In this document: positions 6,530-63,163 of the stretch, one piece after another
Layout: each line of letters opens with the position of its first letter
Numbering within the stretch: the first letter of the stretch is position 1
Source: Cinnamomum chago
Taxonomy: Eukaryota > Streptophyta > Magnoliopsida > Laurales > Lauraceae
Direction: 5' to 3'
DNA: 64,000 nucleotides
Assembly (NCBI GenBank): GCA_038049695.1
Contig: CP142458.1
Location: 42,129,501-42,193,500 of the forward strand
Notes under the pieces: model-generated
What the model was told of the DNA's origin: nothing
What the model saw: only the letters and a program-made list of their open reading frames with translations
Databases searched by the model: none
Made by a program: the position numbers and the translations under genes

Positions 6530-6541
6530 GCTCTGATACCA
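6530..6541 (-). other. primer binding site, initiator Met tRNA
   Basis: TGGTATCAGAGC on the minus strand lies two bases inside the 5' LTR. It is complementary to the 3' end of plant initiator Met tRNA, the usual primer for copia and many gypsy elements. Confidence 0.92.
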
Positions 6542-19817: not shown

Positions 19818-20145
19818 ATTGGTTTCAGAGTCATACCTCATCTCTAATCATGTTAGATCAGTAAGCTTGTTCTAATCTTTGCATGAGATGCGAAGAGGAT
19901 AGAGCAAGGCCTATGTATGGATCAGTTTTTGATGAATTTACTTGGTTTAATAGTAGATTCATGTTTGGATAGTCACAAAAGGGTTTAATAATGATGGAAG
20001 GATGGTATGAAGCCATTGGAACACTTTAGAAGTGATTTGGTGAAGATTGGACACGAACTGTAGAAACCCAAGTTGCAGGTTTCCGTCAGCTCGATCGACC
20101 GAGACCCGCGCTCGGTCAACCGAGCACTTGCAGGTCGGTCGACCG

Positions 20146-22759: not shown

Positions 22760-22814
22760 CTTTAGCGGCGGAAAAACCACTTTTAGCGGCGGTTTCTGTG
22801 TCCGCCGCTAAAAG
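22760..22814. repeat. AGCGGCGG hairpin cassette
   Basis: CTTTTAGCGGCGG (22780-22792) and CCGCCGCTAAAAG (22802-22814) are perfect 13-bp arms around a 9-nt loop. A third direct copy, CTTTAGCGGCGG, lies at 22760-22771. Similar words are common in subterminal regions of some plant CACTA transposons, but no CACTA ends are seen here. Confidence 0.85.
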
Positions 22815-22892
22815 CAGTTTTTCAAACGGTCATTTTTTTGCCCGTTGTGTGATCCCGGTCGACCGAGACCCCTTTGCCGGTCGACCGAGGAC

Positions 22893-22921
22893 TAGCCGTT
22901 GGACACTTTTTGGCTATAAAA
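22893..22921 (+). promoter_or_regulatory. LTR core promoter of the solo LTR: MSA-type site plus TATA
   Basis: TAGCCGTTGGA, the complement of TCCAACGGCTA, is an exact YCYAACGGYYA match. TATAAAA begins 12 bp downstream. The spacing is the same as in the SIRE-like LTR. Confidence 0.6.
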
Positions 22922-25606: not shown

Positions 25607-27375
25607 ATTGGTATCAGAGACATACCTCATCTCTAATCATGTTAGATCAGTAAGCTTGTTCTAATCTTTGCATGAGATGCGAAGAGGATAGAGCAAGGGC
25701 TATGTACGGATCAATTTTTGATGAATTTACTTGGTTTAATAGTAGATTCATGTTTGGATAGTCACAAAAGGGTTTAATAATGATGGAAGGATGGTAGGAA
25801 GCCATTGGAACACTTTTTAAGTGATTTGGTGAAGATTGGACACGAACTGCAGAAACCCAAGTTGCAGGTTTCCGTCAGCTCGGTCGACCGAGACCCGTGC
25901 TCGGTCGACCGAGCACTTGCAGGTCGGTCAACCGAGCCCTTTGGCTGATCGACTGAGGACACTGCACAGTAGGTTGCAGAAATTGGATTTTTCAATTTTG
26001 GGTGTTCTTTAACATTTTATTTTTCCAGCATTATTTGGCCGCCTATATTTTTGATTTGTATGGTTGTATGAGAAACTGACTTGCAGATGATCATGTCCTC
26101 TCCATATGGCCCACAAGTCTTTTGCTTTCTATTTATGGTTATTGGTTTATTTAAGGCTAAGTGTAAAGGGCATCATGGTTTCCTTGGTTTCTCATGAAAG
26201 GGCAAGGCATGATGAATTTCCCTATAGCCCTTTTTTCCATGTTTAGATTACCATGTAAGTCTCATCATTGAGACATAGGAATTTATGTAATCTTCAAATT
26301 TGTAAATTCTGGCGATGTCCGAGACGAAGAAGGAATGCGATGTTGGACTCCTAATCAAAGAGTTTGAAGATTACCAAAAGTGTTTTGGAGTTGTCCAAAG
26401 AGTTTAAGGAATTTCAAAGTTTTGGAAAGTCTAGAAGTCCAAGAAGTCTATTCCGCTAGGGCCATGTGGAGGAGAGGACTAGTTTCTAATCTTAGCACTT
26501 TCTATTTATGGATGAATGCTTGATTTAGAATGTTTCCAACTCTGATACAAACATAGCAAGTTACTAAAATTGGTCAAATCAAATTAATTTTTGAAAAAAG
26601 TTCTAATTAGTGTTGATGACCCATGAGATCGACACATTGGTAACACTAATTTAAGAAACTGGACTTTCCTTAAAATAACTTGACTTGGAAACAATCTTTG
26701 ATCATATCACGAGATGATTTGATATCCACATATATATATATATGTGGGCCCTAATACCTTACAAGGAAATCCTCAATTATAAAATATTAAGTGGGAGCGG
26801 GGCATTTAAACTGAGAAATCCCAATGGTTTTCCACCATAGGTCCATTGTAAGGAAAGTATTAGCCTTCCGCCTTCTTGAGAATGGCCGTTTCCCACGGAG
26901 GGCTTTTATTTCTCCGGTTACTAGATATGGATCTCCTATGGATAGTGTTGGTGAGATGGGGCGGGGGCCCACTCCCCAAGGAAGAGCTGCCTGCAACGGT
27001 TGTCATGCAATGCTAGTTGGTGGGTCACCCTTAACTAAATTAATGATGTAGTATCCCCAAGGATTTGCCTCATGTATTTTAGAAACCGAAGTTAACCGGG
27101 AGTCATACATTATTTGGCATGAGATACCTAGATAATAATGAATGATGGGGATCATGGATAGTTAGTCTTAATCCCAATTTTGACCAACTTTGATCCGCAC
27201 TAATCTAGGTGGTATTTGCACTCCCCAAGGAGGCATACCCCAGGGGATTAGGATTCCGATGTATTCTGAATTTAATGGTTAAGAGGACTCCATATAAATT
27301 TGGTAGAATACTAAACCCTAATGTCATTTAAATTCATTAATTGAATGTATGGTTATCTGCTATAGTATTTCAAGC
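25607..27375 (+). other. primer site and 5' leader of the Angela-like element, copy B
   Basis: TGGTATCAGAGA at 25609 is the tRNA primer site. About 1.75 kb of leader follows before gag; long leaders are typical of Angela/BARE-type copia elements. GGTCGACC-type palindromes occur at 25879-25960. A TA-rich perfect palindrome (CACATATATATATATATGTG-like) lies near 26728-26747. I see no other coding sequence in it. Confidence 0.78.
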
Positions 27376-38529: not shown

Positions 38530-40961
38530 TGTAAGACCCCACCCCGAGTGAACTCGATTAGTGTTAATTAAGTCATGTGTTAGTTCTAAGCTTGATTAGT
38601 GATTTTGGTTAAGTTGGGTTCGGAATAGCTTTTGTTTTAGTTTTGGGCAACTTTGAGTGCTTTGGTAACTAGTGGGGCCTTTGGGGTTCCCCTTATGACT
38701 TTGCTTTTACTTAGGGGATTTTTCAGAATCGTTTTGAATTGCATTATTATCACGTTTCACTTATCTTATTGATCCCTACAACTTTCATGTTGATCCGGTT
38801 CCCATTCGAGACCCCGAAACCCAATTTATTAGCCTCGAGGGGCAAAACGGTCTTTTTACATTTAACCTGTACCCAAAACTTGATATCCCCGAAACTCGCG
38901 AAACATATACTTTTTGGAAACTAGATATTTCGGCGATCATTTCTTCCTTCTTTGTCGAATTCATCTGAGATCCCGAAAGACATGATTTCAGTCAAACAAA
39001 CTTCTTTAGTAGTGGGACCCAACCCCATTTGTTAACAAAGGGAAACCCACTCTCCCTTTCATCTAATTCTTCATTTTCCAGCACAAAGAGAGAGCCTAGG
39101 GTTTGTTGGCAACTTTCTCTTCTTCTTCTTGCTCTCTCCATCTCAATCTCCTACTAATCTTGCACCAACATCAAAATGGAGATCACCATTCTCTCCCTCA
39201 TCTTGAAAGCTTCCTTTTGATACCATTTGTAGAGAAATCCATCAACCTTGAGACTCCCTTTGAGCTAACTCTTCTCATTTGAAGGTCATCCAAGTAAGTA
39301 ATCTTCTCCATCTTCTAGATTTGTGTTCTTCTAGCCCTTGACAAGCTCCATTTTCATTATTGAAAGTTCTATCCTTTTCATTCTTTGTTTGACCCATTTA
39401 GGGTTTGTTTTGGGAGTTTTTGCTTGTAGCTTGGATTTGAGCTTAAGAGGTGATTAGAGGCTTGGTTGTTGCAAGGTTGGACCTAAGGCAAGTGGATGAT
39501 TAGGTGTTTTGAGTTTTAAATGAATTGGTGAAACATTAATGAATTTCTCATGCTTTTATTGATTTGCATTATTGAAATAAATGCTCATAATGCATCTTGC
39601 TAGCTTCATTTAATATCTTGGAAACATGAGTTTATAGCTTTCTTATCTCTAGTCTTGTGGTGGTTGTTTTAGTGTTGAAAGGAGGGAAAAAGAGAAGGAC
39701 CCAGCCCACTGCATAACAGAACCTGGGTTCTGTTCCGTAGTGTGCGCGGTCGACCGGCACGGGGGCTCAGTCGACCGGCGACACAGGGAGCCTAACCAAA
39801 ACACTATTTGGGCCATTTATGTTACAACTCCCGGTCGACCGGCCATGGGTTCGATCGACCGGGCACACAGGGACCAGGTCGACCGGGCCAACTGAGAAAT
39901 CCCTGCTGGAAGGGATTTTTACCCTGTTTTTGGATGGGCTTAGGTGGGACTTTGGCTACCCTTTTTGGACTCATTGGACTATATGTGAGGATGTCTTGAG
40001 CCGACGTTCTTCATGGTTAGTTTGGTTGCATCGAAATCCAATCCAATTCAATCTTGAACGGTATGGGACAACGCGATATCCACCTTATATCTATACGCGA
40101 AGTCTATTTCCTTGGGTATCGCGAATCCTATCCCTTTCGGTGACTGAGTAGGTTGTACGATGCTTCAGGATTAACATCATACTTAGGATGGATTGTTTAT
40201 AGTTTTGATTTTTAATCGTACCGTCTAGTATAATCTATAAGCTCATTTTAAAGTTTTGAAAATTGTAAAGTGTATAAGGAGCCCGGAATGTCTTCAAACT
40301 CAAGGAGTACCAAGTTATTATTATAATCGACATACGGGACCCCTATTCACCTTAAATAAATCTTGAAACCAATATTTTACCCGAAATTGTAATAGTTCAT
40401 TGTATTCTCTCATTTTCCGAGATTTTAATCACATGACTTGTTTTCCCGAAAGCATTGAAGTTAGACTAGTAACAATTACTTGTCCCGAAATATATTGCAC
40501 CACATGAAATGGAAATTGTTCCTTGAACATCCTTGCCCCGCCTATTCATTTACTTGCACTCGATTTACTTGTTCATGTCTGGATTTGTGATTTGACCTAT
40601 GAGTCGGTATCACTAAGCTTGGATAACCTTGTTGGTTTGATCCACCGACTTGGAGATCCCCCTCCCGTCCTGCCAGCTACAGTTTGGATCCCGATACCTG
40701 ATTTATTACCGTGGTCCCGTCTCGATACTCGGTTCGCTACCGTGGTCCATCCCCGTATATTTATATTGTATATATGTTTTCGTTGAATCTCCTCACTTTG
40801 TGTGACTGAGACCAACGTCCCGTTATACTCTTGTCACTTTTGTGATAGAGGACTTAGCTATGTGTGATTGCCATTTTGTTAGTTCCCGATTCCTTGGATA
40901 CCTTACATATTTTATCTTGTTTATTTGTTTTCTCGTAAATGATTTATCTCCTTTATGAGTG
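38530..40961 (+). repeat. LTR of Tekay-2, first part
   Basis: It starts TGTAAGACCCCACCCCGAG and aligns along its length with the Tekay-1 LTR at low identity. Conserved islands include 38901-38975 and a donor-like CCAAGTAAGT at 39291. It carries a GGTCGACC palindrome field (39745-39895) at the same offset as the GGCTAGCC field of Tekay-1. It is interrupted at 40962 by NA-4. Confidence 0.82.
39745..39895. repeat. GGTCGACC palindrome field of the Tekay-2 LTR
   Basis: Five GGTCGACCG-type words (about 39748, 39769, 39834, 39851 and 39877), some with one change, are separated by ACACAGGGA-like spacers. The layout recalls the SIRE-like LTR although the host LTR is from another superfamily. Confidence 0.8.
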
Positions 40962-42875
40962 TGAAAGTCCTCGGGATCCTAACCCTAGAGGGGGGGGTGA
41001 ATAGGGTGAGCTACAATTATGACTAATTAAGACCAATTTTAATTCTTAACAAAAACTAGTCACAAGTGATGATAAATCAATCAATATGCGGAAGCTAAAA
41101 TAAACAATCACCACAAAAGCAAGCACCACAACACCAAGGTTTATAGTGGTTCGGCCTCAATGCCTACGTCCACTACCGGCTTGTGATCCAATCACCCCAC
41201 CGGATTTCCACTATGTATGCTTTTTACTAGGCTAAGAAATAACCCTTACAATGTTGTTTTTCTAGGCTAAACAACAACCTCTCAATGTGCTTTTATAGGC
41301 TAAGCAATAACCTTTACAAGATGCTTTTCAAGGCTAAGAAATAACCTTTACACAATGCTTTTCTTAGGCTAAGTAATAACCTTACAAGATAAAGATTTCT
41401 CTAAGAAAGTGTCTGCACAAAAGATCACTCTAAGAGATTACAATTTAAGCTCAAATTAATTTGCCTCTAAATAGGCGGATATGAAAAATGAAAACTAACT
41501 CACACAAACACTCAAAGAAATGCAAAGATGTATGCTTATGAAGTGTGTGTGTGAAAACTTCAATCAAGTTTAAAAGTAAGCTCAATCAATTTATGCTTAA
41601 TGCAATTCGAAAGTTTAAGGCACAAAAAGATATGATTGAAGTTCTATGCAAATCACTTGAACAATTACACACTTGTGAATGATATGAAAATCTAAAGATC
41701 ACAAGTTGTATGAAAGTGTTTAAGCCTAATCAAGTGATGCATGTGCAATGTTGTTTTCAAAACTAATTTGACTAAAGATTAAAATGAATGAAAACAACAA
41801 GGGAAGTTTCAACCAAGTGAAATAATCATGCAATAAAAGAAATCAAAGATTTAGGCCAAACATGATTAAGAAAGTTTAAAACTAAACTTGGGTTGAAATC
41901 AAAGTAATGAATCCAATCTTAATTAGATCAAAGATTAAGGGAAGAATGGATTCAACATATCATTGTTATCATGCTTGAAATCATTTTCCAAAGTTTCAAA
42001 TAAAGCACATAACAAATGATTAATTAAAAGTAAAACTTACTTGGAGATTTAACTTAGTTGATCCAAGCTTAAGCTTCACTTAATGACCCCTTTGGTCTCT
42101 CTTAGTTCCTCCCCTTTGTCTTGTCTCAAAGCTCCTCAAAGAAGGCTTAAAAATCTCCAACTTTGGACAAAGGAAAGAACTCATTTTTATAGCCAAAAAT
42201 GCCCAACGGCTAGTCCTCGGTCGACCTAGACACAGGTCTCGGTCGACCGAGAAAGCACAACGGTCATATTTCTGACCGTTGGCATGTTACAGCTCAGAAA
42301 CTGCCCACTCGACCGACAGTGGTCCCGGTCGACCGGGAAGCAGGTCTCGGTCGACCGGCGACACTGCCAGGTCACTCCCCTTTTGCAAAATTTCCAACTT
42401 TTGCACATTTGAAGGTATTTCTTTGGGAGGATTTTTGGGCCACTAAATCAAGCTTGGTAACATGTTTTAGATCAATCTAAGATGTTTAAAAACATGAAAC
42501 ACAAAGAGCCTAAAATGATTTGAAACTTTACAACCAAAGGCTAGCTTGATTTGATAAAACTCTTTTTCAAAAACAATGCATACAAAAATGATTCTGAAAA
42601 TGATGAAAGTATGCAATGCACAAACCTATCTTCTCAAATGATTTTCCAAATATAAAGCACAAAGAATTAGGTTTTCAAAAGAGTTTGAATACTAAAAACA
42701 ATGCATCCAAGTATAAAACCAAAACATGCATAAAACAAAACTTTTACCACTTTTAAAAGCAATGCATGTATAAAATCAAGATTTCAAGATATTTTAAATC
42801 AAAGCAAGTGTGTGAATTCAAATGATGTGAAAATGCAAATGCATCCATCAAATTGCAAATACAAAATTCCTAACA
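40962..42875 (-). repeat. 3' LTR of NA-4
   Basis: TG at 40962 to CCTAACA at 42875 (plus-strand view). Contents: five minisatellite units at 41215-41395, a donor-like GTAAG on the minus strand (42036-42040), TATAAAAA (42184-42191), an exact MSA-type match (42202-42212), a hairpin cassette (42218-42249), a divergent AACGG pair (42258-42281) and a second cassette (42305-42362). Confidence 0.93.
42184..42281 (-). promoter_or_regulatory. LTR promoter of NA-4 (3' copy)
   Basis: From the transcription side: a divergent CAACGGTCA / TGACCGTTG pair (42258-42281), a hairpin with 14-bp arms and one mismatch built on CGGTCGACC (42218-42249), CCCAACGGCTA (42202-42212) and TATAAAAA (42184-42191). The same set lies at 48194-48291 in the other LTR. 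Confidence 0.6.
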
Positions 42876-45315: not shown

Positions 45316-46884
45316 TTAAGGTTTGTCTAAGTGAATAACTTTAGGAATCCACCTAAGGTCTTGTGAGGGTTGAACTTTGAGGTCTATTTTGGACTTCTCA
45401 CCAACTAAAGGAGATTTGACTTGATAAATTTTCAATTTAAACTTATCACCATGATATTTAGATTTAACTAAATTTAGCTTAGATTGGTGATTAGTCTTTT
45501 GATGTTGGTGAGTTTGTTTCTTTGGGGATTGTTTCTCTTTTCTTTTCTTCTTATTTTCTCCTTTTACTTGACTTTTGAATTTTAGATTTAACTTAGCAAC
45601 TTTCTTCAAAAGTTCTTTCATGGGTTGATATAAGGGAGATAGGTTGAGAAGCTTTTTGTTTATAGATTCTTTTAAGCTAGGTTTGACTTGTTTAACCTTT
45701 TTAGAATCTATCTTAGGAGACTCCTTGTTAATTGGTTTTACTTGTTTAAGCTTTATGGAGTCTTCCTTGGTTTTTAGTGTCTTACCCTTCAAGTTTGATT
45801 TTACTTTCTTTGGTTCAAAGATGGGATTAGACACATTGCTTCTTCTTCGTTTGCACTCAAACCTAAAGTGTCCTTCAATGCCACAATAATTACATTTCGA
45901 CATGGGCAAAGAAGTGTGAGTGCTAGAGAATGAGGACTCACCTTTCACAAAAGTGATGGTGAAATTAGGGTCATGTGAAATATTCCTATCAAAACCAAGA
46001 CCCGTCCTATCTCTTTGAGATTTACCCAATTTAAATAATTTTACAAATTTCTCATTACTTTGGGTAAATTTGCACTCATACTTTTGTTTGTACTCTTCAA
46101 GTTGAGTGACTTGGGTTTTAAGGGTTGAATTTTCATTTTTAACTTTTGTTAGTTCATTTTCAATTCCCTTAAAATTGTTTAGCTCTTCATAGGCAAGTTT
46201 TAACTTAGATTTAAGCTCATTAACAACATTAGATCCAAGTTCTAAAGTTTTTAAATTACTTTGAGCATTAGACAAATTTTCATTGGAAATTGTCAACTTG
46301 GATTTTAAATAGTTAATGTTTTCATCTTGTCTTTTAATTGTATCTCTTAGGTTTAAATTTTCATTTTTAAGCTCATCACAATTAATCTTAATCTCATTTA
46401 ATTCATCTTGAGCATTAGATAAATTTTCCTTAGAGATAGTCAATTTAGATTCAAGATTGTTAAAGTCTTTATCTTGCCTTTGTAATTGATCTCTTAGTTT
46501 TAGATTTTCCTTATTAAGATGATCATAACCTATCTTTAATTCTTTAAGTTCATCTTGAGTATTGTATAGGTTATTCAAAGAGATCATGAACTTAGATTCT
46601 ACACAATTTATGAATTCATCTTTTTCTCTAAGTTCATTTTTAGAAGAGACTAATTCTTGGTTTAGCCTTTTAGATTCTTCTTTTAATCTTTTATTTTTCT
46701 TGGAAACCTCTAAGGACCATGTGTACAATTCCTCATAGGCTTCATATTCATCAAATTCTTCTTCTTTTAATTCAAGTTGAGATTCTTTAATTTTAATGTT
46801 TGAATCTCCATAAGATGGAAGAATGAGGGGTCTAGAAGAATCTACAAGGTCTAGCATAGTAGAGTCCATTCTAATGATTTTCAT
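45316..46884 (-). CDS. gag-like coiled-coil and zinc-knuckle protein of NA-4 (522 aa)
   Basis: The first about 50 residues are acidic (MDSTMLDLVDSSRPLILPSY). A long coiled coil spans about residues 60-290 and contains a roughly 49-residue unit repeated two and a half times (SKLTISKENLSNAQDELNEI and variants). A CCHC knuckle, CNYCGIEGHFRFEC, is at residues 331-344. The C-terminal third is very lysine-rich and ends DLRWIPKVIHLDKP. The SIRE-like element has a matching coil (SKLTTSNDNLAKAEKEI) and a second knuckle between Gag and protease, so this frame corresponds to that spacer. RNA or particle binding is inferred, as is use of partner enzymes. The start could be residue 1 or the MDST methionine at residue 6; the NA-5 homologue shares both. 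The frame is open throughout. Confidence 0.85.
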   Translation of the reverse strand: MKIIRMDSTMLDLVDSSRPLILPSYGDSNIKIKESQLELKEEEFDEYEAYEELYTWSLEVSKKNKRLKEESKRLNQELVSSKNELREKDEFINCVESKFMISLNNLYNTQDELKELKIGYDHLNKENLKLRDQLQRQDKDFNNLESKLTISKENLSNAQDELNEIKINCDELKNENLNLRDTIKRQDENINYLKSKLTISNENLSNAQSNLKTLELGSNVVNELKSKLKLAYEELNNFKGIENELTKVKNENSTLKTQVTQLEEYKQKYECKFTQSNEKFVKLFKLGKSQRDRTGLGFDRNISHDPNFTITFVKGESSFSSTHTSLPMSKCNYCGIEGHFRFECKRRRSNVSNPIFEPKKVKSNLKGKTLKTKEDSIKLKQVKPINKESPKIDSKKVKQVKPSLKESINKKLLNLSPLYQPMKELLKKVAKLNLKFKSQVKGENKKKRKEKQSPKKQTHQHQKTNHQSKLNLVKSKYHGDKFKLKIYQVKSPLVGEKSKIDLKVQPSQDLRWIPKVIHLDKP

Positions 46885-46970
46885 ATAAACACAACTCTAG
46901 GGTTTTAACTCTAGGTTTTTACACCTAATCAAGAGTTCCAAACACTTGATCCTAAAAGATAGAGCACGAG

Positions 46971-46984: not shown

Positions 46985-48885
46985 TGAAAGTCCTCGGGAT
47001 CCTAACCCTAGAGGGGGGGGGGTGAATAGGGTGAGCTACAATTATGACTAATTAAGACCAATTTTAATTCTTAACAAAAACTAGTCACAAGTGATGATAA
47101 ATCAATCAATATGCGGAAGCTAAAATAAACAATCACCACAACACCAAGGTTTATAGTGGTTCGGCCTCAATGCCTACGTCCACTACCGGCTTGTGATCCA
47201 ATCACCCCACCGGATTTCCACTATGTATGCTTTTTACTAGGCTAAGCAATAACCCTTACAATGTTGTTTTTCTAGGCTAAACAACAACCTCTCAATGTGC
47301 TTTTATAGGCTAAGCAATAACGTTTACAAGATGCTTTTCAAGGCTAAGCAATAACCTTTACACAATGCTTTTCTTAGGCTAAGTAATAACCTTACAAGAT
47401 AAAGATTTCTCTAAGAAAGTGTCTGCACAAAAGATCACTCTAAGAGATTACAATTTAAGCTCAAATTAATTTGCCTCTAAATAGGCGGATATGAAAAATG
47501 AAAACTAACTCACACAAACACTCAAAGAAATGCAAAGATGTATGCTTATGAAGTGTGTGTGTGAAAACTTCAATCAAGTTTAAAAGTAAGCTCAATCAAT
47601 TTATGCTTAATGCAATTCGAAAGTTTAAGGCACAAAAAGATATGATTGAAGTTCTATGCAAATCACTTGAACAATTACACACTTGTGAATGATATGAAAA
47701 TCTAAAGATCACAAGTTGTATGAAAGTGTTTAAGCCTAATCAAGTGATGCATGTGCAATGTTGTTTTCAAAACTAATTTGACTAAAGATTAAAATGAATG
47801 AAAACAACAAGGGAAGTCTCAACCAAGTGAAATAATCATGCAATAAAAGAAATCAAAGATTTAGGCCAAACATGATTAAGAAAGTTTAAAACTAAACTTG
47901 GGTTGAAATCAAAGTAATGAATCCAATCTTAATTAGATCAAAGATTAAGGGAAGAATGGATTCAACATATCATTGTTATCATGCTTGAAATCATTTTCCA
48001 AAGTTTCAAATAAAGCACATAACAAATGATTAATTAAAAGTAAAACTTACTTGGAGATTTAACTTAGTTGATCCAAGCTTAAGCTTCACTTAATGACCCC
48101 TTTGGTCTCTCTTAGTTCCTCCCCTTTGTCTTGTCTCAAAGCTCCTCAAAGAAGGCTTAAAAATCTCCAACTTTGGACAAAGGAAAGAACTCATTTTTAT
48201 AGCCAAAAATGCCCAACGGCTAGTCCTCGGTCGACCTAGACACAGGTCTCGGTCGACCGAGAAAGCACAACGGTCATATTTCTGACCGTTGGCATGTTAC
48301 AGCTCAGAAACTGCCCACTCGACCGACAGTGGTCCCGGTCGACCGGGAAGCAGGTCTCGGTCGACCGGCGACACTGCCAGGTCACTCCCCTTTTGCAAAA
48401 TTTCCAACTTTTGCACATTTGAAGGTATTTCTTTGGGAGGATTTTTGGGCCACTAAATCAAGCTTGGTAACATGTTTTAGATCAATCTAAGATGTTTAAA
48501 AACATGAAACACAAAGAGCCTAAAATGATTTGAAACTTTACAACCAAAGGCTAGCTTGATTTGATAAAACTCTTTTTCAAAAACAATGCATACAAAAATG
48601 ATTCTGAAAATGATGAAAGTATGCAATGCACAAACCTATCTTCTCAAATGATTTTCCAAATATAAAGCACAAAGAATTAGGTTTTCAAAAGAGTTTGAAT
48701 ACTAAAAACAATGCATCCAAGTATAAAACCAAAACATGCATAAAACAAAACTTTTACCACTTTTAAAAGCAATGCATGTATAAAATCAAGATTTCAAGAT
48801 ATTTTAAATCAAAGCAAGTGTGTGAATTCAAATGATATGAAAATGCAAATGCATCCATCAAATTGCAAATACAAAATTCCCAACA
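46985..48885 (-). repeat. 5' LTR of NA-4
   Basis: 1,901 bp, about 99.7% identical to the 3' copy by eye. TATA at 48194-48201 and the MSA-type site at 48212-48222. Confidence 0.93.
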
Positions 48886-50663: not shown

Positions 50664-53600
50664 ATGACCCGTTTATGGGAGCCGACTGCCATTGCAACCT
50701 CAAAACCAAAGAAAAAGGAGGTTCTCAATGTGCAAACCAAGTCAGCTCCTCAGCAGCCAAGGAAAGCTGAAAACAAAGCTGCAGGTAAAAAGCCTGAACT
50801 CTCTGATGCCTTCAAAGAACGAGTAGAGAAGAAATACCCGTTCGATGAAGATGTTGAAGAAATCTTTGGGGCACTTCTCGCAAACGGTAAATTCACCTTG
50901 CCTGACCCCAAAAGACCAGGAGATGTTGGCAAAACCAACGATCCTCGGTACTGTCCATACCATCAGATGGTTTCGCATCCTCTCAGTCAATGCTTTGTTG
51001 TGAGAGAGAAGATAAATGAGAAGTGGAAAAACGGAGTCATTACCTTCGACAAGAACTATGGGTCTGCCTCCGTCAACATGGTGTCGTGTGGACAAAAACA
51101 AAAATCACCAAAAGAGAAGATCACTACTTCCTTCAAGGTAATAAAGATGACCCAAACGTCTCAAGAGTTGGTTCCATATCCAACATCAGACGGACAGCCC
51201 ATATGGGTACACCCCGATATCCTAGAAGATGAAAATTGGGAGGTCGTCAAAACAAAGCCAACCGCTCGACAGCGAAGGCAAACCAGGAGACAACTCCGCA
51301 AGCTCAAACAGCAGGAGAAAGCTCCGAAAAAGCAAGAAGTCGCTGAAAAGGCAGAAACCTCCTCTACCGCTTCACTGGGGGCAACAGAAGAGTCCTCTCC
51401 TAAGGTTTCAAAGGCAGCAAGAAAATTCACTCTTGGTGATTTCATGCCACCACACCTCAAAGATGAAACTATGCAAGGGGCATCATACTCTTGCAACTCG
51501 GTGGTCGGATTCCCCATGGATGGATACGAGTCCAGTGACACCGCCAGTGACATCGATGAGTGGGAGGAATCCCTCGAAACAGGAGAATATCTCTCCGACG
51601 AGGAATGGATCCCTGAATCTCATCTTATGCCAGTAATCTGGTATAACCCATTACAGCCGCAAGGATCCTGGTCTGATGATGAAGAAGACCAAGAGGTTGT
51701 CCAAGAAAATACTCCAGTGGAACCCAACCATGTTGAACCACAAGGAGCAAACGGAGAAGAAGATTTGGCTCCCGTGCCTGATCTCGATGAATACGCAAGG
51801 ATCTTGCAGCACCTTGCTATAGAGCAAGAACAAGGTCGCATCAATCAGCTTCGTCACAACCCAGCACCGGAAGTTCCTGAAAATCTACAGGAATCTCCTC
51901 CGGTAACCCCGGAAAATGAAGAAAGTTGTTGGATCAATGATCCTCTTACATCTGAGGACGAATCTGATTCCCAACAGTTCATCTTGGAGGCATCTTCCGT
52001 CAAAGTTACTTGCAATGCAATAGCTCAGGATGATAATTCCTCACTTTCTCAGGCTTCTTCTCCTGGAACAGTGACATCGGAACTCAAACCTTTTCCGACT
52101 GATCACCATGAAGAAATTCCAGCCGGTGAAATCTTCTTCAGAGAAAATCCGGTCAATTGGTCCCAAATGCCCGATCTCATCGGTGATGTCTGGACCGACA
52201 AAATATTCGATAAAGAAGGAAAGTTGCTGGATGCTGTTCAGGACTTGCTCCCGGAAAATGCTCCATGCAACACAATTACTGAAGATGGCAATGCTGACAC
52301 AGAGACATCTTCAGCAAATGAGAAGGAACGACCCCTCGATCTCGAGGGTGATCTTCTAAACAAAGACCCTTCTCCAGAAGCTCTTGAAGTTGGTAGAGGT
52401 ACCCGTTCTGGCCGGGATTACCACAAAAACTACAACCAACCTTCTGCTTCTTATGTAAATCCTTCGGGAAAACAAGTTGTAAACGCCCCTACTGGCAAGA
52501 ATAATGAAAATGCAGGCCCCAAGGAGGCTTTCAAGTACGACTTGATTCAGCACTTCAAACACATACCTACACGTCTGCACATCCTAGACTTATTACGAAT
52601 GTCACCACAGACTCGTGATAGTCTCATTTCAGAACTACAAATGCTGGATGCGGATGTCGACAAACATGCCCCACAAGTCCTACAAATTGAAATGGACTAT
52701 AGGGTCAAAAAATCAAAAACTCCCTCAAAAGGAGAAAAGAAGAAAACTGAGGGATCCTGCATCGAATGCCTCTCGGTTCAAAAAGCAGCAAGTGCAACCA
52801 TCGCCTTCACCAAGGAAGACCTCCTGCTAGGTGAGACAAAGCACAACCGACCCCTGTACTTCACCGGGTACATCAAAGAGGTGCCACTACGCAGAATCCA
52901 GATCGATCCAGGTTCTGCACTCAACCTCATCTCCACTTCGGCACTCGAAGAACTGGGCATTCCGCCTAGCAAGCTGAGCCACACATCTGTGTCCATCTTT
53001 GGATATGATGGCAGCGCTCAAAGTCCGATCGGCAAAATCAGGTTCAAGTTGCAAATCGGTGATCTTATCTCCGAGGTCACTGTCCATGCAATAAAGACCC
53101 CTTCGTGCTACAACATCCTTCTCGGACGCCCCTGGATACACGAGAATGGTGTTGTCCCCTCGACTTTACATCAGTGCATCAAGTTCGTTGGCAATGACGG
53201 CTTGATACATCGAGTGTTTGCAGACAAAAAGCCCTTCAAAGGCAAAGAAGTCTATTTCGCAGATGCTCAGATGTACAATGATGAAAAAGAAGAAAGGGAG
53301 GAAGAAATAGCACCCTTTACCGAAAATCTCCAGAAAGACAAAGGCAAGGCTCCTCAGCAATCACCGGAAGAAAACAAACCCTCTATCAAAACCGAAGAGA
53401 ATAATCAATCTCCCTTCATGGTCTCCCTCAAGTCTTCAAAGTCTCTGGTGATCACCACCAAAGCAAAGAAGATAAAACAAAAGGCTGGGGGCAAGTTTGT
53501 TGTCTCCTTCGTGACTATCTTGCAAAACACGGATTCGGACTCAGAGCCAGAAGACGATACATCGTCAAGCCAAGCTGATGATCAACAAGTTCAGCCCGCT

Positions 53601-56475
53601 CTCACTCCGATGGAGACAACCGTTGACATAGAAGATCCGGCATCTGCTTCCTTCGTTGTTCCAGCAACATCAGCAGAAGAAAAGCCAATCTTCTTCCATA
53701 AATCGGGAGTTTCTTCATCAAATTCTTCGCTTGAACCTTTCCAAAATGAAGGTATGCCTCAACTATCCCTGTATAGTCCAATGGCGCAAGCTATCATGAA
53801 GAAAATGGGCTACGACGCTCAGAACCCAATCGGTTTGGGAGATGGCCGTGGTATTATCACGCCATTGGAACCAACCCTGACCAAAAGTCAACTGGAAGGT
53901 TGGAAACCCCACCGCCACATAGAAAAGTCTTCACATGGGCTAGGGTATGATCCTGACGCCTCCTTGAGACAGTTGACACAAAGGCCGCAAAGTCATCTTG
54001 TCGACCAAGCCTCAACATCTCATATTAATGAAGACATTGATCTCCCTGGATATCTCTTTGAAGAGTTGACCGTCAAGGATCCAGGAAGTCTATCCAATTG
54101 GTACGATTCCTCTGATGATGAAGAAGAATTGTCCGATAATACAGACACACGGTTCTCTGACCCAGAAGAACCACTGTCTCCAAAGGAAGTGCCCTACTTC
54201 GACCTAGTTTCAACAGGTGATTGGGACCACCTCATAGGAAATCTTGAGAAAAGTACCAATCAAGAAGACCCATGGACAAAAGCAGAGCCGTGGTCTGTAG
54301 ATACCTTTGGAACTCCAGAAGGCTTTGTTGGGTTGGAAGCCTTCGAAAATATTGTGGAGGAACCACCTTCAAACCTTCCAACTGAAGATTCTGTTCAAAA
54401 GATAGACTTGGGAACACCTGATAACCCACGTCCTGTATTCATAAGCAAGAATATAAAGGATGATGAGTTACCCGAGTATATCGCGTTTCTTCATGAGTTC
54501 GTTGATTGTTTTGCATGGTCTTACGCTGAGATGCCTGGCTTAGACCCCAAAATAGCAATCCACAAACTCAATCTTCAAAAAGATATCAAGCCTGTCAAAC
54601 AAGGCCAAAGAAGGTTCCGTCCTGATGTGATGGACAAAATTGAACAAGAAGTTCAAAAACTTAAAAGCGTTGGCTTCATCCGTGAGGAACAGCATCCTGA
54701 ATGGTTGGCCAACATCGTCCCCGTGACAAAGAAAAATGGGCAAATCAGGATCTGCATTGATTACAGAGACCTGAACAATGCATGCCCAAAAGATGAATTC
54801 CCGCTCCCTATACCGGAGGTGATGATCGACAACACCTGTGGGTTCGAGCTAATGACATTCATGGATGGCTTCTCTGACTACAATCAGATAAAGATGCATC
54901 CTGAAGATGAAAAACACACAGCATTTCGGACCCCGTTTGGCGTGTATTGCTACACTGTCATGCCATTCGGTCTGAAGAATGCCGGCGCTACATATCAGAG
55001 GGCTATGATGAAGATATTCCAAGATATGCAGCACAAGACGGTCGAATGTTATGTCGACGACCTCGCCGTCAAAAGCAAAAGAAAAGAAGACCATCTCAAA
55101 GATCTTCGAGAAGTCTTCTTCCGACTTCGCAAACACAAACTGCGAATGAATCCCCTCAAATGCTTCTTCGGTGTTTCATCGGGTAAGTTTCTCGGATTCG
55201 TAGTACGGAAAGCTGGCATAGAGCTTGACCCCATCAAAGTCAAGGCTATCCTAGAAATGCCATCTCCAAAAACCCTAAGACAATTAAAAGGGCTCCAAGG
55301 AAGATTGGCATACATTCGACGGTTCATCTCCAACCTATCAGGGAAGTGCCGTCCATTCTCTCGGTTAATGAAGAAAGGTGTCGATTTTGTCTGGGATGCT
55401 GAATGTGAAGCCGCGTTCCAGGACATCAAGTCATACCTGACTAAACCTCCAGTGTTGGCTGCCCCCACAACTGGAAAACCATTCCTCTTGTACACAAGAG
55501 CCCTTGACTGTTCTTTAGGCGCTCTGCTCACACAAAAGAATGACGAGGGAAAAGAAGCTGCTCTATATTACCTTAGTCGCATGTTGATAGGTGCAGAGCA
55601 TCGCTACTCTCCAGTCGAAAAAGAATGCTTGGCAGTGATGTTCGCCGTACAAAAACTGCGTCACTACCTGCTATCCAACACAGTGTACCTGATTTCGAGG
55701 ATCAACCTCCTAAAGGTCCTTGTCACAAAAGCAGGTTCTCTCAATGCCCAACTGGCAAAATGGTCCATCCTCCCGTCACAATTTGACATTAGGTATGTAC
55801 CACAAAAAGCAATCAAAGGCCAAGCTCTAGTAGACTTCTTCGCGGAGCATCCATTGCCTAAAGATTCTCCACTCAGGGATGACCTCCCAGACGAATCGGT
55901 CTACAGTGTGGAGACTTCCTTATCAAATGCTTCCTGGCACATGTACTTCGATGGCACAACCTGGACAAATGAAAAGGGAAATCAAATATCGGGAATTGGC
56001 ATTCTCTTTGTTAGTCCCGACAAAAACATGATTCCACACGCATTCTCGTTACTGGAACCATGTTCAAACAATGCAGCTGAGTACCAAGCCCTCATCGTAG
56101 GATTGGAGCTCGCCCTTGAATCCGGCATCACTACGCTGGAAGCTTTTGGAGACTCTCAACTGATCGTCAACCAGATGAATCAGAAATTTGAAATCAGGAA
56201 GCCCGATCTGTTGCCTTACTACAACAAGGCACAATCGCTTCGACAAAAGTTCGACATCTGTCACATCACCCATATCCTCAGAGGTGAAAACATTCGTGCA
56301 GATGCCCTGGCTGGACTTGCTGCGTCTATGGCAATCCAAGAAGGGGAAAACATGCAAGTTACAGTGTGTCAAAAAAGGATTCTCCCTCCTCTCAACACAC
56401 ATCAAGCAGTTGCTGAATGCCACCAAGTGGTTGGAAGTCGGATCTCCGTCCTTAAACCTCTGATCGGCGACTGGA
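50664..56475 (+). CDS. Tat-2 polyprotein with G-patch, protease, RT and two RNase H domains
   Basis: One open frame of about 1,937 codons before the NA-5 insertion. Residues about 40-130: a PYHQMVSHPLSQC module common in Tat-type proteins. Residues 130-720: low-complexity acidic linkers. About 740-830: aspartic protease with DPGSALNLIS (D748) and NILLGRPWIH. About 1036-1085: a G-patch-like segment (MAQAIMKKMGYDAQNPIGLG). About 1319-1530: reverse transcriptase with ICIDYRDLNNACPKDEFPLP and YVDDLAVKS (YVDD at 1463-1466). About 1600-1680: RNase H. About 1758-1888: second RNase H (MYFDGTTWTNEKGN, NNAAEYQALIVGLELA, FGDSQLIVNQMN). The classical Gag matrix part is not evident upstream. Integrase would lie beyond the window. 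The frame looks whole as far as seen; the last codons of the full open frame (to 56558) belong to the NA-5 LTR. Confidence 0.88.
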
Positions 56476-58386
56476 TGTTAGGGATTTTGGAATTGCAATT
56501 TGATGGATGCATTTGCACTTTAGCATCATTTGATATTTCACACATGCATTGTTTTTAGAAACATTGAAATCTAGTTTTATACATGCATAGCTTTTAAGAT
56601 GTGGAAAAGTATTTGTTTTATGCATGTTTTGGTTTTAAACTTGGATGCATTAGTTTTGAAACCCAAACTCTTTTGAAAACCTATTTCCTTGTGCATTACA
56701 TTTGGAAAATCATCTTGTGAATTTAGGTTTGAGTCTTGCATACATTCTTCACAAAAAGAATCATTGTTGTATGCATTTTCATTTGAAAAGAGTTTTATCA
56801 AATCAAGCTAGCTTTGGTTTTAAACTTTTGAATCATTTTAGGCTTTGTGTTTTTCATGTTTTTAAACATCTTAGAATGTCTTAAAACATGTTATTTAAGC
56901 TTGATTTAGTGGCCCAAAGATCCCTCAAAGAAATACTTTGAAATGGAAAAAAGTTGGATTTTTGGCCCCAGGGACTCGCCCGGCAGTGTCGCCGGTCGAC
57001 CGAGACCTGTGTCTCGGTCGACCGAGGACACTGTAGGGCGACTGTGCAGTTTCTGAACTGCAAGCTGCCAACGGTCATTTTTATGACCGTTGTGCTTTCT
57101 CGGTCGACCGAGACCCCTTTGCCGGTCGACCGAGAACTAGCCGTTGGCAACTTTTTGGCTATAAAGTCCATTCATTTCCAACCTTTTTAAAGGCTTGAAA
57201 CTTGAACCTTTGAGACCATTTTGGAGCCATTGGAAGGGGATGAAGTTGGAAAGGCTAGGAGGTCTTTAGGAGAGCTAAAGCTTGGGATTAATGAGTTAAA
57301 CCTCCAAGTAAGCTCTACCTTTATTAATCATAGTTATGTGCTTTGTTTAAACTATTGGTATATGATATTTAGCATAATAACTATGATGTGTTGAATCCAT
57401 TCTTGTTCTAATCTTTGGTCTAATTAAGATTGGATTCTTCACCTTTGTTTTCAATCCAAGTTGTTAACTTTATTAATCATGCTTAGACAAAATCTTTGTT
57501 TTTCTTTCATAGCATGAGTCTTTTACTTAGTTGAAACATTGTTTGTTGTTTTCATTCATTTGAACTTTAGTAAAATTAATTTGGTTTTGAAAACAACATT
57601 GCACATGCATCACATGTTCTAAATTAGTCATTTTCATACAACTTGTTAGTCCTTGATTTTCATGTCATAAACAAGTTGAATTTCTACATGTGATTTGCAT
57701 AAGACTTCAATCAAATCTTTTATGAGCTTTAAACTTTGAATTGCTTTAAGCAATATATTGAGTGAGCCTTCTTTTTAAACTTGATTGGAGTCATCACACA
57801 CACACACATCATGAGCATATACTTTTGCATGCATAGAGTGTTTGTGTGAGTTTGTTTTAAACTTTCATATTAGCCTATTCAAGAGGCAAATTCATTTGAG
57901 CTTAAATTGTATCTCTTAGAGTGATCTTTTGTAAAGACACCTTCTTAGAGAAAAGCTTTGTGTAAGGTTATTGCTTAGCCTAAGAAAAGCATCTTGTAAG
58001 GTTATTGCCTAGCCTAAGAAAGGCATTTTGTAAAGGTTATTGCTTAGCATATAAAAGCACATAGAGAGGTTGTTGTTTAGCCTTGAAAAGCAACATTGTA
58101 AGGGTTATTGCTTAGCCTAGTTAAAAGCATAAATAGTGGAAATCCGGTGGGGTGATTGGATTCACAAGCCGGTAGTGGATGTAGGCATTGAGGCCGAACC
58201 ACTATAAATATTGTGTTGTGGTGATTGCTTGTGTGGTGATTGTTTATTAGCTTCCGCATATTGATTGTTTTATCATCACATTTGACTAGTTTATATTAAG
58301 AAGTTAAAATTGGTGTAAATTGGTCATAGTTGTAGCTCACCCTATTCACCCCTCCCTCTAGGGTTAGGATCCTCCGTGGACTTTCA
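56476..58386 (+). repeat. 5' LTR of NA-5
   Basis: TGTTAGGG to GGACTTTCA, 1,911 bp. In order: hairpin cassette with perfect 14-bp arms and a 4-nt loop (56993-57024), AACGG hairpin with 10-bp arms (57069-57092), second GGTCGACC pair (57101-57134), MSA-like core (57138-57148), TATAAAG (57160-57166), GTAAG (57308), five minisatellite units (57962-58130) and the conserved end CTCTAGGGTTAGGATCC. Confidence 0.93.
57138..57166 (+). promoter_or_regulatory. LTR core promoter of NA-5
   Basis: TAGCCGTTGGC is one base off the MSA consensus on the complement, and TATAAAG starts 12 bp downstream of it. Confidence 0.55.
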
Positions 58387-58400: not shown

Positions 58401-58486
58401 CAAGTGCTCTATCCCTTAGGATCAAGTGTTTGGAACTCTTGATTAGGTGTAAAAACCTAGAGTAAAAACCCTAGAGTTGTGCTTAT

Positions 58487-59881
58487 TTGATAATCATTAG
58501 AATGGACTCCACTATGCTAGACTTTGTAGATTCTTCTAAACCCCTCATTCTTCCATCTTATGGAGATTCAAACATTGAAATTAAAGAATCTCAACTTGAA
58601 TTAAAAGAAGAAGAATATGATGAACTTGAAGCCTATGAGGAATTGTACACATGGTCCTTAGAGGTTTCCAAGAAAAATAAAAGATTAAAAGAAGAATCTA
58701 TAAGGCTAAACCAAGAATTAGACTCTTCTAAAAATGAACTTAGAGAAAAAGATGAATTTATAAATTGTGTAGAATCTAAGTTCATGATCTCTTTAAATAA
58801 TCTATCTAACATTCAAGATGAACTAAAAGAATTAAAGATGGATTATGATAATGTCAATAAGGAAAATTTAATTCTAAGAGATCAAATAAAAAGGCAAGAC
58901 AAAGACTTTAACAATTTAGAAGCCAAGTTGATTAAAAGTAAGTTAAAAACCCAAGAGCTTGGATCTAATGTTGTTAATGAACTAAAGCTTGAATTAAAAC
59001 TTGCCAATGAAGAGCTAAGCAAATATAAGGAAATTGAAAATGAACTTTCAAAAGTCAAACATGAAAATTCAATCCTTATAACCAAAGTCACTCAACTTGA
59101 AGGATATAAACAAAAGTATGAGTGCAAGTTTACCCAAAGTGAAGAAAGACTTGAAAAATTATTTAAATTGGGTAAACCTCATGGAGATAGGACGGGTATT
59201 GGATTTAATAGGAATATGTCTTATGACCCTAAATTCACCAACACATTTGTGAAAGGTGAGTCCTCTTTCTCTAGCACTCTTTGTCACTTGCCTAAAACAA
59301 AATGTGATTATTGTGGCATTGAAGGACACTTTAGGTTTGAGTGCAAACTAAGAAGAAGCAATGTGTCTAATCCCATCTTTGAACCAAAGAAAGTAAAATC
59401 AAACTTGAAGGGTAAGACACTAAAAACCAAGGAAGACTCCATAAAGCTTAAACAAGTTAAACCAAGTAACAAGGAGTCTCCCAAGATAAATTCTAAAAGG
59501 CTTAAACAAGTTAAACCAAAAATCAAAGAATCTATTAACAAAAAGCTTCTCAACCTACCTCCCTTAAGTCAAAACATGAAAGAACTTTTGAAGAAAATTA
59601 CAAAGTTAAATCTAAATTTCAAAAGTCAAAGAAAGGGAGAAAGTAAGAAGAAAAGAAAAGTGAAACAATCCCCAAAGAAACAAACTCACCAACATCAAAA
59701 GACTAATCACCATTCTAAGCCAAATTTAGTAAAATCTAAATATCATGGTGATAAGTTCAAATTGAAAATTTATCAAGTTAAATCTCCTTTAGTTGGTGAG
59801 AATTCCAAACAAGACCTCAAAGTTCAACCCTCTCAAGACCTTAGGTGGATTCCTAAAGTTATTTACCTAAACAAACCTTAG
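58487..59881 (+). CDS. gag-like coiled-coil and zinc-knuckle protein of NA-5 (464 aa)
   Basis: Closely related to the 522-residue frame of NA-4, with the same start (IRMDSTMLDFVDSSKPLIL) and the same end (QDLRWIPKVIYLNKP). The coiled coil (about residues 60-235) is shorter because it has about one unit fewer of the roughly 49-residue repeat, which accounts for most of the length difference. The CCHC knuckle CDYCGIEGHFRFEC is at residues 273-286, and the lysine-rich tail follows. The frame starts about 90 nt after the primer site and no other frame precedes it. Both copies stay open although the flanks have diverged, which hints at selection for the protein; this is inference. It is probably a structural or RNA-binding protein used with enzymes of a SIRE-like partner. 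Confidence 0.85.
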   Translation: MIIIRMDSTMLDFVDSSKPLILPSYGDSNIEIKESQLELKEEEYDELEAYEELYTWSLEVSKKNKRLKEESIRLNQELDSSKNELREKDEFINCVESKFMISLNNLSNIQDELKELKMDYDNVNKENLILRDQIKRQDKDFNNLEAKLIKSKLKTQELGSNVVNELKLELKLANEELSKYKEIENELSKVKHENSILITKVTQLEGYKQKYECKFTQSEERLEKLFKLGKPHGDRTGIGFNRNMSYDPKFTNTFVKGESSFSSTLCHLPKTKCDYCGIEGHFRFECKLRRSNVSNPIFEPKKVKSNLKGKTLKTKEDSIKLKQVKPSNKESPKINSKRLKQVKPKIKESINKKLLNLPPLSQNMKELLKKITKLNLNFKSQRKGESKKKRKVKQSPKKQTHQHQKTNHHSKPNLVKSKYHGDKFKLKIYQVKSPLVGENSKQDLKVQPSQDLRWIPKVIYLNKP

Positions 59882-60956: not shown

Positions 60957-63163
60957 TGTTAGGAATTTTGTAGATTGCAATTTGATGGATGCATTTCATT
61001 CTAGCATCATTTGATTTACACACTTGCATTGGTTTTAAATAAACTTGAAATCTTGTTTTATTCATGCATTGCTTTTAAGATTTGTAAAAGTATTGATTTA
61101 TGCATGATTTGTATTTTCATCTTGGATGCATTTGATTTAGAAAAGAGTTTTCAAGAAATCAAGCAAGCCTTTGTTTTAAAAGTTTTGAATCTTTTTAGGC
61201 TTTTTATGTCATGTTTTAAAAACCTTTAGAATCTTTAAAACATGTTTTCCTAGCTTGATTTAGTTGCCAAAAGGTCCCCCAAAGAAAAACCTTCAAATAT
61301 GCAAAAGTTGCAAAGGGAGGCTGTCCCGGCAGTGTCGCCGGTCGACCGAGAGGCAGGTCTCGGTCGACCGAGACAACTGGAGGTAAAATCTGCAGTTTTG
61401 AACTGAAACCTCCAACGGTCAGAAATCTGACCGTTGTGCCTTCCCGGTCGACCGAGACCTCTTTGTCGGTCGACCGAGGACTAGCCGTTGGCAACTTTTT
61501 GCTATAAATATGAGTTCTTTCCCTTGCCAAAAGTTGGGAATTTTTAACCCCTCCTTGAGAGGATTTGAGGCATATCAAAAGGGAAGAGAACCAAGGGATG
61601 AAGGGGAAGATTAGGAAAGCTAAAGCTTGGATTAATGAAGTTAAACCACCAAGTAGGCTCTTCCTTTCTTAATCATATGTTTGCATGCTTTTGTTTTATT
61701 TTTGGTAAATCATTTCTAGCATGTTAAACTATGTTTGTGTTGTGTCCTTAACATATTTTATGTTTTGAGTTGATTTATTGTTTTGGATACAACATCATAT
61801 GATTCAATCCAAGTAGTACTTGAATTGGTAAATCAAAGTAGATCATGTTAATGAAAGAAACTTGGTAAATCATATGTAACATGATTCCTATACTTGGTTG
61901 AATCTTTGGTTGTTGTTTTCCATCATAAGAAAATCACTTTCAAAAGTATCTTATGTTTTGGACTCAACTTCTTTACAAATCATATGTTTTCATGTTTTGT
62001 TTTATCATTGGTAAATCTTGTAACATGTTAACCTATGATGTGTTGTATCCTTAGCATGTGTTATATTTTGAATAGATCTATTGTTTTGGATACATCACCA
62101 TTGATTCATCAAAGTAGTACTTTATCTTTGGTAAATCTAAGTAGATCATGTTAATGAAATATGTAACATGATTCATATACTTTGTTGAATCTTTGGGTGT
62201 TGTTTTTCCATCATAAGAAAATCTCCTTCAAATGTATCTTATGTTTTGGATTCAACATCATTACAAATCATATGTGTATTATTGTTTTAATGCTTCACAA
62301 CTTGCCTTACTTTGATTGGTAAATCATTTTCAAGTTGTCCTTATAATTACATATGATTTGTCCCCTCTTTTCAATCAAATCTATTTTTATGTTTTGAGCT
62401 TCATTGATGATTTGATTGACATCCCTATGCATCACATGTTTAGAGCTAATCCATTTCATACAACTTGTGTAACTTTGATATCATTAACAAGTTGTTACTT
62501 TTAACATGTGATTGCATTATATCCTCAATCATAAATGTTTTATAAGCTAAAACTTTCAAAAGCCTTAGGCTTACATTTATGAACTTTCATTTTCAAAATG
62601 ATTGAGGATCACACACACACACTTCATTTGTTTTCATCTTTGCATTCATAGTGTGAGTGTGTATTTGTATTTCACTTCCATATCCGCCTATTTAAGAGGC
62701 AATGTAATGAGCTTAATAGAATCTCCATCAAGTGTATGTTAGACACTAATTTAGTGAGATAACCAACCTATGGTTGAAGAGGTTATTGCTTAGCCTATAA
62801 AAGCATAATGTATAGGTTGATGTTAAGCCTTGAAAAACATCATTGTAAGGTTATTGCTTAGCCTTGGAAAGCATATTGTAAAGGTTATTGCTTAGCCTAT
62901 TGAAAAGCATAAATAGTGGAAATCCGGTGGGGTGTTGGATCACAAGCCGGTAGTGGATGTAGGCATTGAGGCCGAACCACTATAAATACTTGTGTGATGG
63001 TGCTTGCTTTGTGGTGATTGCTTATATTAGCTTCCGCATATTGTTTGATAATCATCACTTGTGACTAGTTTGTTTTAAAGAAGTTAAAATTGTTAAAATT
63101 GGTCATAAAAGAAGCTCACCCTATTCACCCCCCCTCTAGGGTTCGGATCCAGGTGGACTTACA
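60957..63163 (+). repeat. 5' LTR of NA-6
   Basis: TGTTAGGA to GGACTTACA, 2,207 bp, the longest of this LTR group. It has a hairpin cassette with perfect 13-bp arms (61339-61370), an AACGG hairpin with 11-bp arms and a 2-nt loop (61413-61436), a second GGTCGACC pair (61445-61478), a TATA box (61503-61510), a weaker donor-like GTAGG (61653) and about four minisatellite units (62775-62905). An expanded region at 61780-62280 repeats words such as TTGTTTTGGATACA twice. Confidence 0.9.
61411..61510 (+). promoter_or_regulatory. LTR promoter of NA-6
   Basis: An exact MSA match TCCAACGGTCA (61411-61421) forms one arm of the hairpin CAACGGTCAGA-AA-TCTGACCGTTG. TAGCCGTTGGC (61482-61492) lies 10 bp before TATAAATA (61503). 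Confidence 0.6.

Follow-up and report, generated by a model that had tools for sequence, protein, structure and literature searches.

Introduction

In the LTRs of Tnt1, Tto1 and ONSEN, the region upstream of the TATA box contains several copies of short protein-binding words, which couple the element to a host response. Unlike the arrays described below, these words and the factors that bind them are specific to each element, and we know of no enhancer box of the Tnt1, Tto1 or ONSEN kind that is common to copia and gypsy.

A closer likeness is found in the Sireviruses. Bousios et al. described in 2010 the RM boxes, palindromes with a CGG-CCG core that form clustered CpG islands in the LTR, number at least eight copies per element and are followed by a TATA box on average 37 bp downstream (PMC2829016). 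The Vitis word is CGGTCGACCG, and the account given there terms the RM box Sirevirus-specific, has it absent from classic copia elements and reports that no common binding factor was found (PMC2829016). The maize Sirevirus palindrome clusters of Bousios 2016, as relayed in PMC5311732 and PMC10760457, resemble the present arrays in lying in the LTR regulatory region and in having strong predicted structure, but are built on a different word, CACCGGACNNNGTCCGGTG.

Here we follow up an initial annotation of a 64-kb stretch of Cinnamomum chago DNA (the window, by which we mean the whole stretch analysed). It had singled out clusters of the palindromic word GGTCGACC as a hairpin cassette shared by unrelated LTR retrotransposons. 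The portion of these clusters in the SIRE and NA elements is the RM box of the published Sirevirus account, a connection absent from the annotation: palindromic CGG-CCG clusters stand upstream of TATA, and the Vitis word is an extended form of GGTCGACC (PMC2829016). In contrast to that account, we find the present arrays beyond the Sireviruses as well: a gypsy LTR has them, as do the leader of a copia element other than SIRE and two more LTR families.

Results

The window holds 36 exact copies of GGTCGACC against a mean of 0.19 and a maximum of 2 in 100 dinucleotide shuffles, so the enrichment over shuffled sequence stands. Each of the 12 stretches first named as clusters has at least one exact word, and a word at 22133 that had been missed continues a copia leader cluster split by the solo LTR at 20146. 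Across the 1.06-Gb assembly (14 contigs, 12 of these longer than 56 Mb) we counted 97,078 copies, compared with 12,208 for the reversed control. In 19 systematically sampled 10-kb stretches we found 20 words, two of them lone, spread over six stretches. When this sample is joined to the window, GGTCGACC ranks first in enrichment among palindromic 8-mers with 10 or more occurrences, at 77.6 times first-order expectation. A further 20 C1 stretches were picked from listed places because they bear the word, and are not a random sample.

The words come in pairs of narrow spacing. Genome-wide there are 34,521 pairs with N10-16 between the words (18-24 bp apart), against 20 for the control, and 7,763 over the 30 spacings of N17-46, against 28; the yield per spacing is thus about 4,900 in the first range vs about 260 in the second. 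The spacing is 22 bp in 29 of 51 GGTCGACC pairs, LTR twins included. An intact word followed by GGTTGACC makes 1,505 pairs forward and 1,506 reverse across the genome.

Sirevirus-type LTRs contain 29 of the 36 window copies. The SIRE element, which occupies the left end of the window and extends to 8067, encodes a copia pol (Pfam RVT_2, gag_pre-integrs and Pol_BBD) and has boxes in both LTRs, at 736-883 in the 3' LTR (minus strand; three exact and three one-mismatch words) and at 7534-7681 in the other (minus strand; four exact and two one-mismatch). No word lies between the two LTRs (1271-6544), and the 3' LTR count leaves SIRE short of the minimum of eight copies per element that is given for linker plus 3' LTR in the RM-box account (PMC2829016). 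The region 8001-9000, which starts beside the SIRE LTR, has a strongly G-rich strand (GC 0.548, GC skew 0.573). Four words each are found in the islands of NA-6 (61340-61475, plus strand) and of the two NA-4 LTRs (42219-42356 and 48229-48366, both minus strand). Three solo LTRs carry plus-strand islands: 18336-18420, two words, in the LTR at 17970-19662 (TSD GTTTC); 20645-20790 in that at 20146-22115 (TSD GACCG); and 22857-22886, two words, in that at 22267-24140 (TSD CTAAC). A Sirevirus-type primer binding site, TATCAGAGC, follows the 5' LTR at 6530 (SIRE, minus), 46971 (NA-4, minus) and 58392 (NA-5, plus), and a Sirevirus-type polypurine tract, AGGGGGAG, precedes the 3' LTR at 1271 (SIRE) and 42876 (NA-4). 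The NA LTRs are akin to the SIRE LTR across the island region, and the three solo LTRs to the NA LTRs. The proteins of NA-4 (45316-46896) and NA-5 (58475-59881) are 70-73% identical, rich in charged residues and have no Pfam match.

The NA-5 U3 island (56977-57147, plus strand) illustrates the arrangement, with a word pair at 56994/57016, an AACGG dyad, a second word pair at 57102/57124 and a CCAACGG box at 57138-57147. A TATAAA at 57160-57165 (plus strand), read directly, comes 28 bp past the final word, compared with the published mean of 37 bp (PMC2829016). The dyad, AACGGTCA-N6-TGACCGTT at 57070-57091 (plus strand), sits between the two word pairs; it occurs seven times in the window against 0.00 expected. 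Sixteen aligned U3 pieces, from which LTR twins, the partial island at 22857 and L032 were omitted, have this order of box pair, AACGG dyad, box pair, CCAACGG and TATAAA in common, with some boxes gapped or decayed, and TATAAA is aligned beside the array in 16/16. The SIRE and NA words are palindromic with a CGG-CCG core, the outer C or G missing in some.

The full pattern of the mitosis-specific activator (MSA) is YCYAACGGYYA. It has eight matches in the window vs 0.22 expected, every one at a Sirevirus-type island (718-728, 790-800, 7516-7526, 7588-7598, 22893-22903, 42202-42212, 48212-48222 and 61411-61421), while NA-5 has the AACGG core without a full match. AACGG is described as the MSA/MYB3R core (PMC9730800). 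The full matches suggest MYB3R (G2/M) input into these LTR promoters; among the papers listed in literature searches, none dealt with MSA sites in LTR promoters.

Outside the Sireviruses, the array at 39748-39884 (plus strand; three exact and two one-mismatch words) belongs to an LTR that starts at about 38533, in the element annotated as Tekay-2 and here called gypsy family B. Its gypsy nature was established through other copies. The LTR segment around 39748 has at least 41 genome matches (40 of 5,819 candidates were scored), and three sets of these are paired 7.8-7.95 kb apart. Between one such pair, defined by segment similarity and not by words, locus L054 has coding regions for gypsy protease, RT and integrase, the RT/RNase H 82% and the integrase 71-81% identical to the proteins of the Tekay-1 element of the window. 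Since L050 unites a gypsy integrase and, after it, an LTR with three exact words within one 3.8-kb stretch, and since L048-L050 carry three to five exact words apiece, we place the family-B array in a gypsy LTR. A scan of the window LTR ahead of the array found no TATAAA-type box. Elsewhere in the window, 50664-56558 is a stop-free frame of 1964 codons with gypsy-type RT/RNase H similarity (35-37% to the window gypsy proteins).

A further array lies in the leader of a copia element, at 25882-25960 (plus strand; two exact words and decayed ones). A second copy at 20085-20145 (plus strand) is interrupted by the solo LTR at 20146, beyond which the final word of the copy stands at 22133-22140. That solo LTR is inserted in a GGTCGACCG box of the leader (20137-20145 / 22116-22140), and its TSD derives from the box; the next solo LTR, at 22267, begins about 150 bp beyond the first. 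The leader segment has at least 43 genome matches, with 40 candidates scored. In L055, a relative of the copy at 25882, the array stands between the primer binding site and the gag-pol of a copia that is not close to SIRE (30-38% identity in the two pieces compared). The order there is TATA at 3054, primer binding site at 3565 with the LTR end inferred just before it, words at 3835-3907 and then the gag-pol. The copia assignment of the initial annotation therefore stands; Angela and Tekay, as lineage names, remain that annotation's own labels.

Two more LTR-like families carry arrays. Family A (L028, L033, L038-L040 and L043) is weakly similar (61-65%) to the gypsy LTRs of L042 and L044. Family C, which is unclassified (L001, L019, L031, L034, L036 and L041), has tandem-like units of about 99 bp, and in the three copies scanned its words lie some 540-1,250 bp after TATA, provided that the LTR runs on the minus strand. 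The word-bearing L037 was omitted from the lineages. Restriction of the RM box to Sireviruses thus fails in this genome, where the carriers also include a gypsy LTR, a second copia (in its leader) and two additional LTR families. With the words and 14 bases on each side masked, no flank homology was found at E 1e-4 among Sireviruses, family C, the copia leader and the A/B group, in line with what had been claimed for sequence outside the SIRE/NA group; the sole cross-link at that threshold is a neighbouring gypsy LTR in L026, which is not itself an island.

Beside word and spacing, the lineages have an outer half-site, CAGTGTNCYC, in common. Counting around words with up to one mismatch, CAGTGT was matched at five or more of six positions in 26/57 cases in family C, 15/49 in Sireviruses, 11/19 in family A, 4/20 in gypsy family B and 1/12 in the copia leader, against 0.1-0.7% of shuffled flanks. 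Support is good in C, Sireviruses and A, modest in B, and the half-site is barely present in the copia leader. Across 127 distinct sites, palindromic matching centred on the word exceeds a within-lineage shuffled null at positions ±1, 2 and 3 (P 0.017, 0.002 and 0.008). There is no excess at ±4 to 12, and a deficit at ±5, 7, 8, 9 and 11. By lineage the excess is found in Sireviruses (P 0.001), A (P 0.024) and C (P 0.016), and neither family B (P 0.10) nor the copia leader (P 1.0) reaches significance. In these and the following permutation tests, related copies count as independent. The recurring unit is a palindrome of about 14 bp, NNN-GGTCGACC-NNN, in which each NNN tends to match its partner, a weak covariation.

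Half-sites were also compared across lineages. The best single match was above the column-permuted null (P<0.05) in none of the 10 lineage pairs, the lowest P values being 0.055 and 0.06; the mean of the five best matches was above it in seven of 10. The Sirevirus half-site CTGCAGTGTGGCC-GGTCGACC-GG recurs exactly in the family-A island of L039 and, in all but its first base, in the family-C island of L036.

The pairs are themselves spaced with some regularity. Adjacent gaps of at least 27 bp measure 44, 55, 64, 66, 74-76 and 84-86 bp in Sireviruses, 44, 66-67 and 76 bp in family A, 64 and 90 bp in family B, and 32-33, 75-81, 99 and 128 bp in family C. At a period of 10.5 bp, 27 gaps show phase-free concentration (R 0.545, P<1/5000), as do the 14 clustered gaps left after merging neighbours (R 0.686, P 0.001). 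The peak is wide: the 27 gaps stay below P 0.03 between 10 and 12 bp. Anchored at phase zero, neither set reaches significance at 10.5 bp (P 0.23 with 27 gaps and 0.295 with 14), and it is attained only at 10.75-11.0 bp (P 0.0006 or less), a period chosen after looking. Genome-wide start-to-start pairs number 7,382 at 75-79 bp, 807 at 80-83 bp and 812 at 90-94 bp, ranges chosen after the sample histogram and counts that large families dominate. Pairs may tend to lie whole helical turns apart, and the genome counts are such as phasing would predict. The account of RM boxes in PMC2829016, as far as it goes, is not one in which we met the pairing at about 22 bp, the helical phase or the CAGTGT half-site.

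The same geometry is occupied by other palindromes. The Tekay-1 gypsy LTR has an array of GGCTAGCC, GGTTAACC and variants at 28690-29180 (plus strand), with the same words at 36517-36884 in its twin, spaced at 22-23 and about 113 bp. Genome-wide, pairs in this geometry number 4,418 for GGCTAGCC (control 1) and 1,288 for GGTTAACC (control 17). Pairs of GCTCGAGC at 20-22 bp occur in L025 (1287-1386, 6644-6743 and 9115-9195) and L026 (2841-3167 and 7251-7577). One GCTCGAGC array lies directly downstream of a gypsy integrase fragment.

Pooling all families, CpG observed/expected is 0.937 in the islands, 0.317 in the islands minus words and 0.322 in the flanks; removal of the words drops the ratio to flank level, so the words alone make the CpG island, a contrast that is partly circular because the sites were found by the word. 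Among 50 one-mismatch words near exact ones, 20 differ by CpG transitions, 11 and 8 by transitions at the two outer G positions and 0 at T/A, a pattern compatible with selection on source copies, again at sites found by the word. Three family-B copies were identified through LTR similarity; in these, conservation of the box columns does not exceed that of other columns (36/40 vs 678/758), and therefore nothing suggests selection after insertion; CpG sites in these copies (4/5 vs 16/27) are too few. Leader conservation figures (27/32 box vs 127/285 other columns) were dropped because the three stretches aligned poorly.

The hairpin that gave the cassette its name is present in NA-5 as described. 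The pair at 56994/57016 has perfect 14-bp arms and a 4-nt loop (-49 kcal/mol, z -9.0), with an outer CAGTGT/ACACTG stem that extends it, and the second NA-5 pair (57102/57124) forms a 14-bp stem with a 12-nt loop. Long arms are not general: perfect stems of at least 14 bp occur in 5/48 distinct exact pairs, and in 12/48 the stem is the 8-bp word alone. What recurs instead is the 14-bp palindrome, the pairing at about 22 bp and, as a tendency, the phasing.

Discussion

We reasoned that the islands, as Sirevirus-type RM-box arrays, could act like enhancers, with a putative dimeric host factor occupying one face of the DNA, and judging from sequence features we give this reading about even chances. 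The array would be a control sequence at the level of DNA, made of palindromes of about 14 bp that are paired about 22 bp apart, often with CAGTGTNCYC outside, the pairs tending to whole-turn distances. A candidate host factor would bind the palindromes as a dimer from one face of the helix. In the Sirevirus U3 the array would work from just upstream of TATA, interleaved with AACGG (MSA-core) sites, and in the copia leader from downstream of the likely promoter, where an enhancer may also sit. Unrelated elements would have adopted a common site because all could draw on one putative factor, and further families may rely on different factors or words while keeping this geometry. We favor such an array because the word-centred symmetry, the pair spacing of about two turns, the apparent phase between pairs and the position on either side of the promoter all fit it. 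Pair spacing and word persist while the spacers differ. A literature search for a factor that binds GGTCGACC gave nothing usable, the matches listed being unrelated by title.

Alternatively, the arrays could act once transcribed, as RNA hairpins that feed small-RNA silencing or serve the element in packaging or dimer initiation. Four folded pieces do beat their shuffles (z -9.0, -4.8, -2.5 and -4.4, the gypsy piece being equalled by 7/200 shuffles), maize has an excess of small RNAs over Sirevirus LTR palindrome clusters (Bousios 2016, via PMC5311732 and PMC10760457), and in family C the symmetry about the pair centre is above the null (outer P<1/2000, inner P 0.01). Against this, a stem arises from any two copies of a palindrome, and long perfect ones are as scarce as noted above. 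The remaining four lineages lack significant pair-centred symmetry (lowest P 0.067), whereas the loop-free, word-centred symmetry is significant. Since Sirevirus arrays lie upstream of the TATA box, the RNA should not include them at its 5' end, and RNA would not be expected to show helical phasing. We consider an RNA role improbable, and small-RNA targeting of the palindromes may be a consequence. The hairpin as the selected unit was likewise found insufficient, given 14-bp arms in 5/48 pairs and significant pair-centred symmetry in one of five lineages. A mutational process, such as quasi-palindrome correction or tandem duplication, might make or homogenise the words without selection. Palindromes can be self-correcting, and the tandem-like units of family C point the same way; yet such a process leaves unexplained why one word and an outer half-site recur across unrelated lineages, the helical phasing and the 77.6-fold excess of a single palindromic 8-mer, and we regard it as very improbable.

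A different kind of origin is exchange, ancient or repeated, in which gypsy elements, Sireviruses and a second copia would have come to share a cassette of about 50 bp, whether through template switching, recombination or nested insertion, and the copies then diverged. The shared stretch does exceed the word, as the recurrence of the CTGCAGTGTGGCC-GGTCGACC-GG half-site in L039, and its near-exact form in L036, demonstrates; the mean of the five best matches is above the null in most lineage pairs, and nesting is extensive in the window, with one solo LTR inside a box. What speaks against it is that the single best match never rises above the null, that there is no homology beyond the islands at E 1e-4, that the placement of the array relative to the promoter varies among lineages, and that palindromic correlation within each site can also yield an excess in the top five. 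Recent exchange we rejected because in none of the 10 lineage pairs did a single best match stand out, even if the mean of the top five did in seven; exchange in the wider sense, which had been one of the two explanations first offered, is in our judgement possible but rather unlikely, with the best few matches taken together in its favor and no single one. The simplest account, one recently amplified Sirevirus family with all other matches due to chance or nested fragments, draws on the 29/36 window words in Sirevirus-type LTRs. It conflicts with L050, where an integrase of gypsy type is followed by a word-bearing LTR, with the gypsy protease, RT and integrase encoded between paired LTR segments, with the unrelated flanks of Sireviruses, family C, the copia leader and the A/B group, and with the number of matches to the gypsy LTR and leader segments (at least 41 and at least 43, 40 candidates scored for each). 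Gypsy coding regions beside arrays and unrelated flanks led us to reject it as scarcely credible. Sharing across superfamilies, as first claimed, is thus far above chance and involves more than one amplified family.

Returning to the dimer-bound array, the other explanation first offered, a single DNA-binding host factor, fits the shared word. It does not extend to every array, since a second gypsy family has other palindromes in the same geometry and one factor would therefore not explain all of them. A broader and more tentative idea is that superfamilies have a regulatory code in common, consisting of phased, paired palindromes in which the geometry is shared and the word names the host factor, so that families would compete for one and the same factor or be synchronised by it. 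GGTCGACC would be the word of Sireviruses, one gypsy, another copia and two LTR families, and GGCTAGCC, GCTCGAGC or GGTTAACC would be used elsewhere.

The RM boxes of Sireviruses are known. Among the literature matches listed for CGGTCGACCG only PMC2829016 concerns retrotransposons by title, and RM-like arrays in gypsy LTRs were not found in print, as far as literature searches in one library go. Within the same limits, a gypsy LTR, a second copia (in its leader) and further LTR families are new as carriers of such arrays, and the CAGTGT half-site, the apparent phasing and the alternative words are new as well.

These data suggest that the Sirevirus RM box is not peculiar to Sireviruses. The putative RM-binding factor can now be specified as one that would bind a 14-bp palindrome as a dimer, in pairs about 22 bp apart and often with CAGTGT outside. 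Were a single factor to serve both copia and gypsy elements, linked waves of activity would be expected, and the nearly 100,000 potential sites across the genome could rewire host genes or titrate the putative factor.
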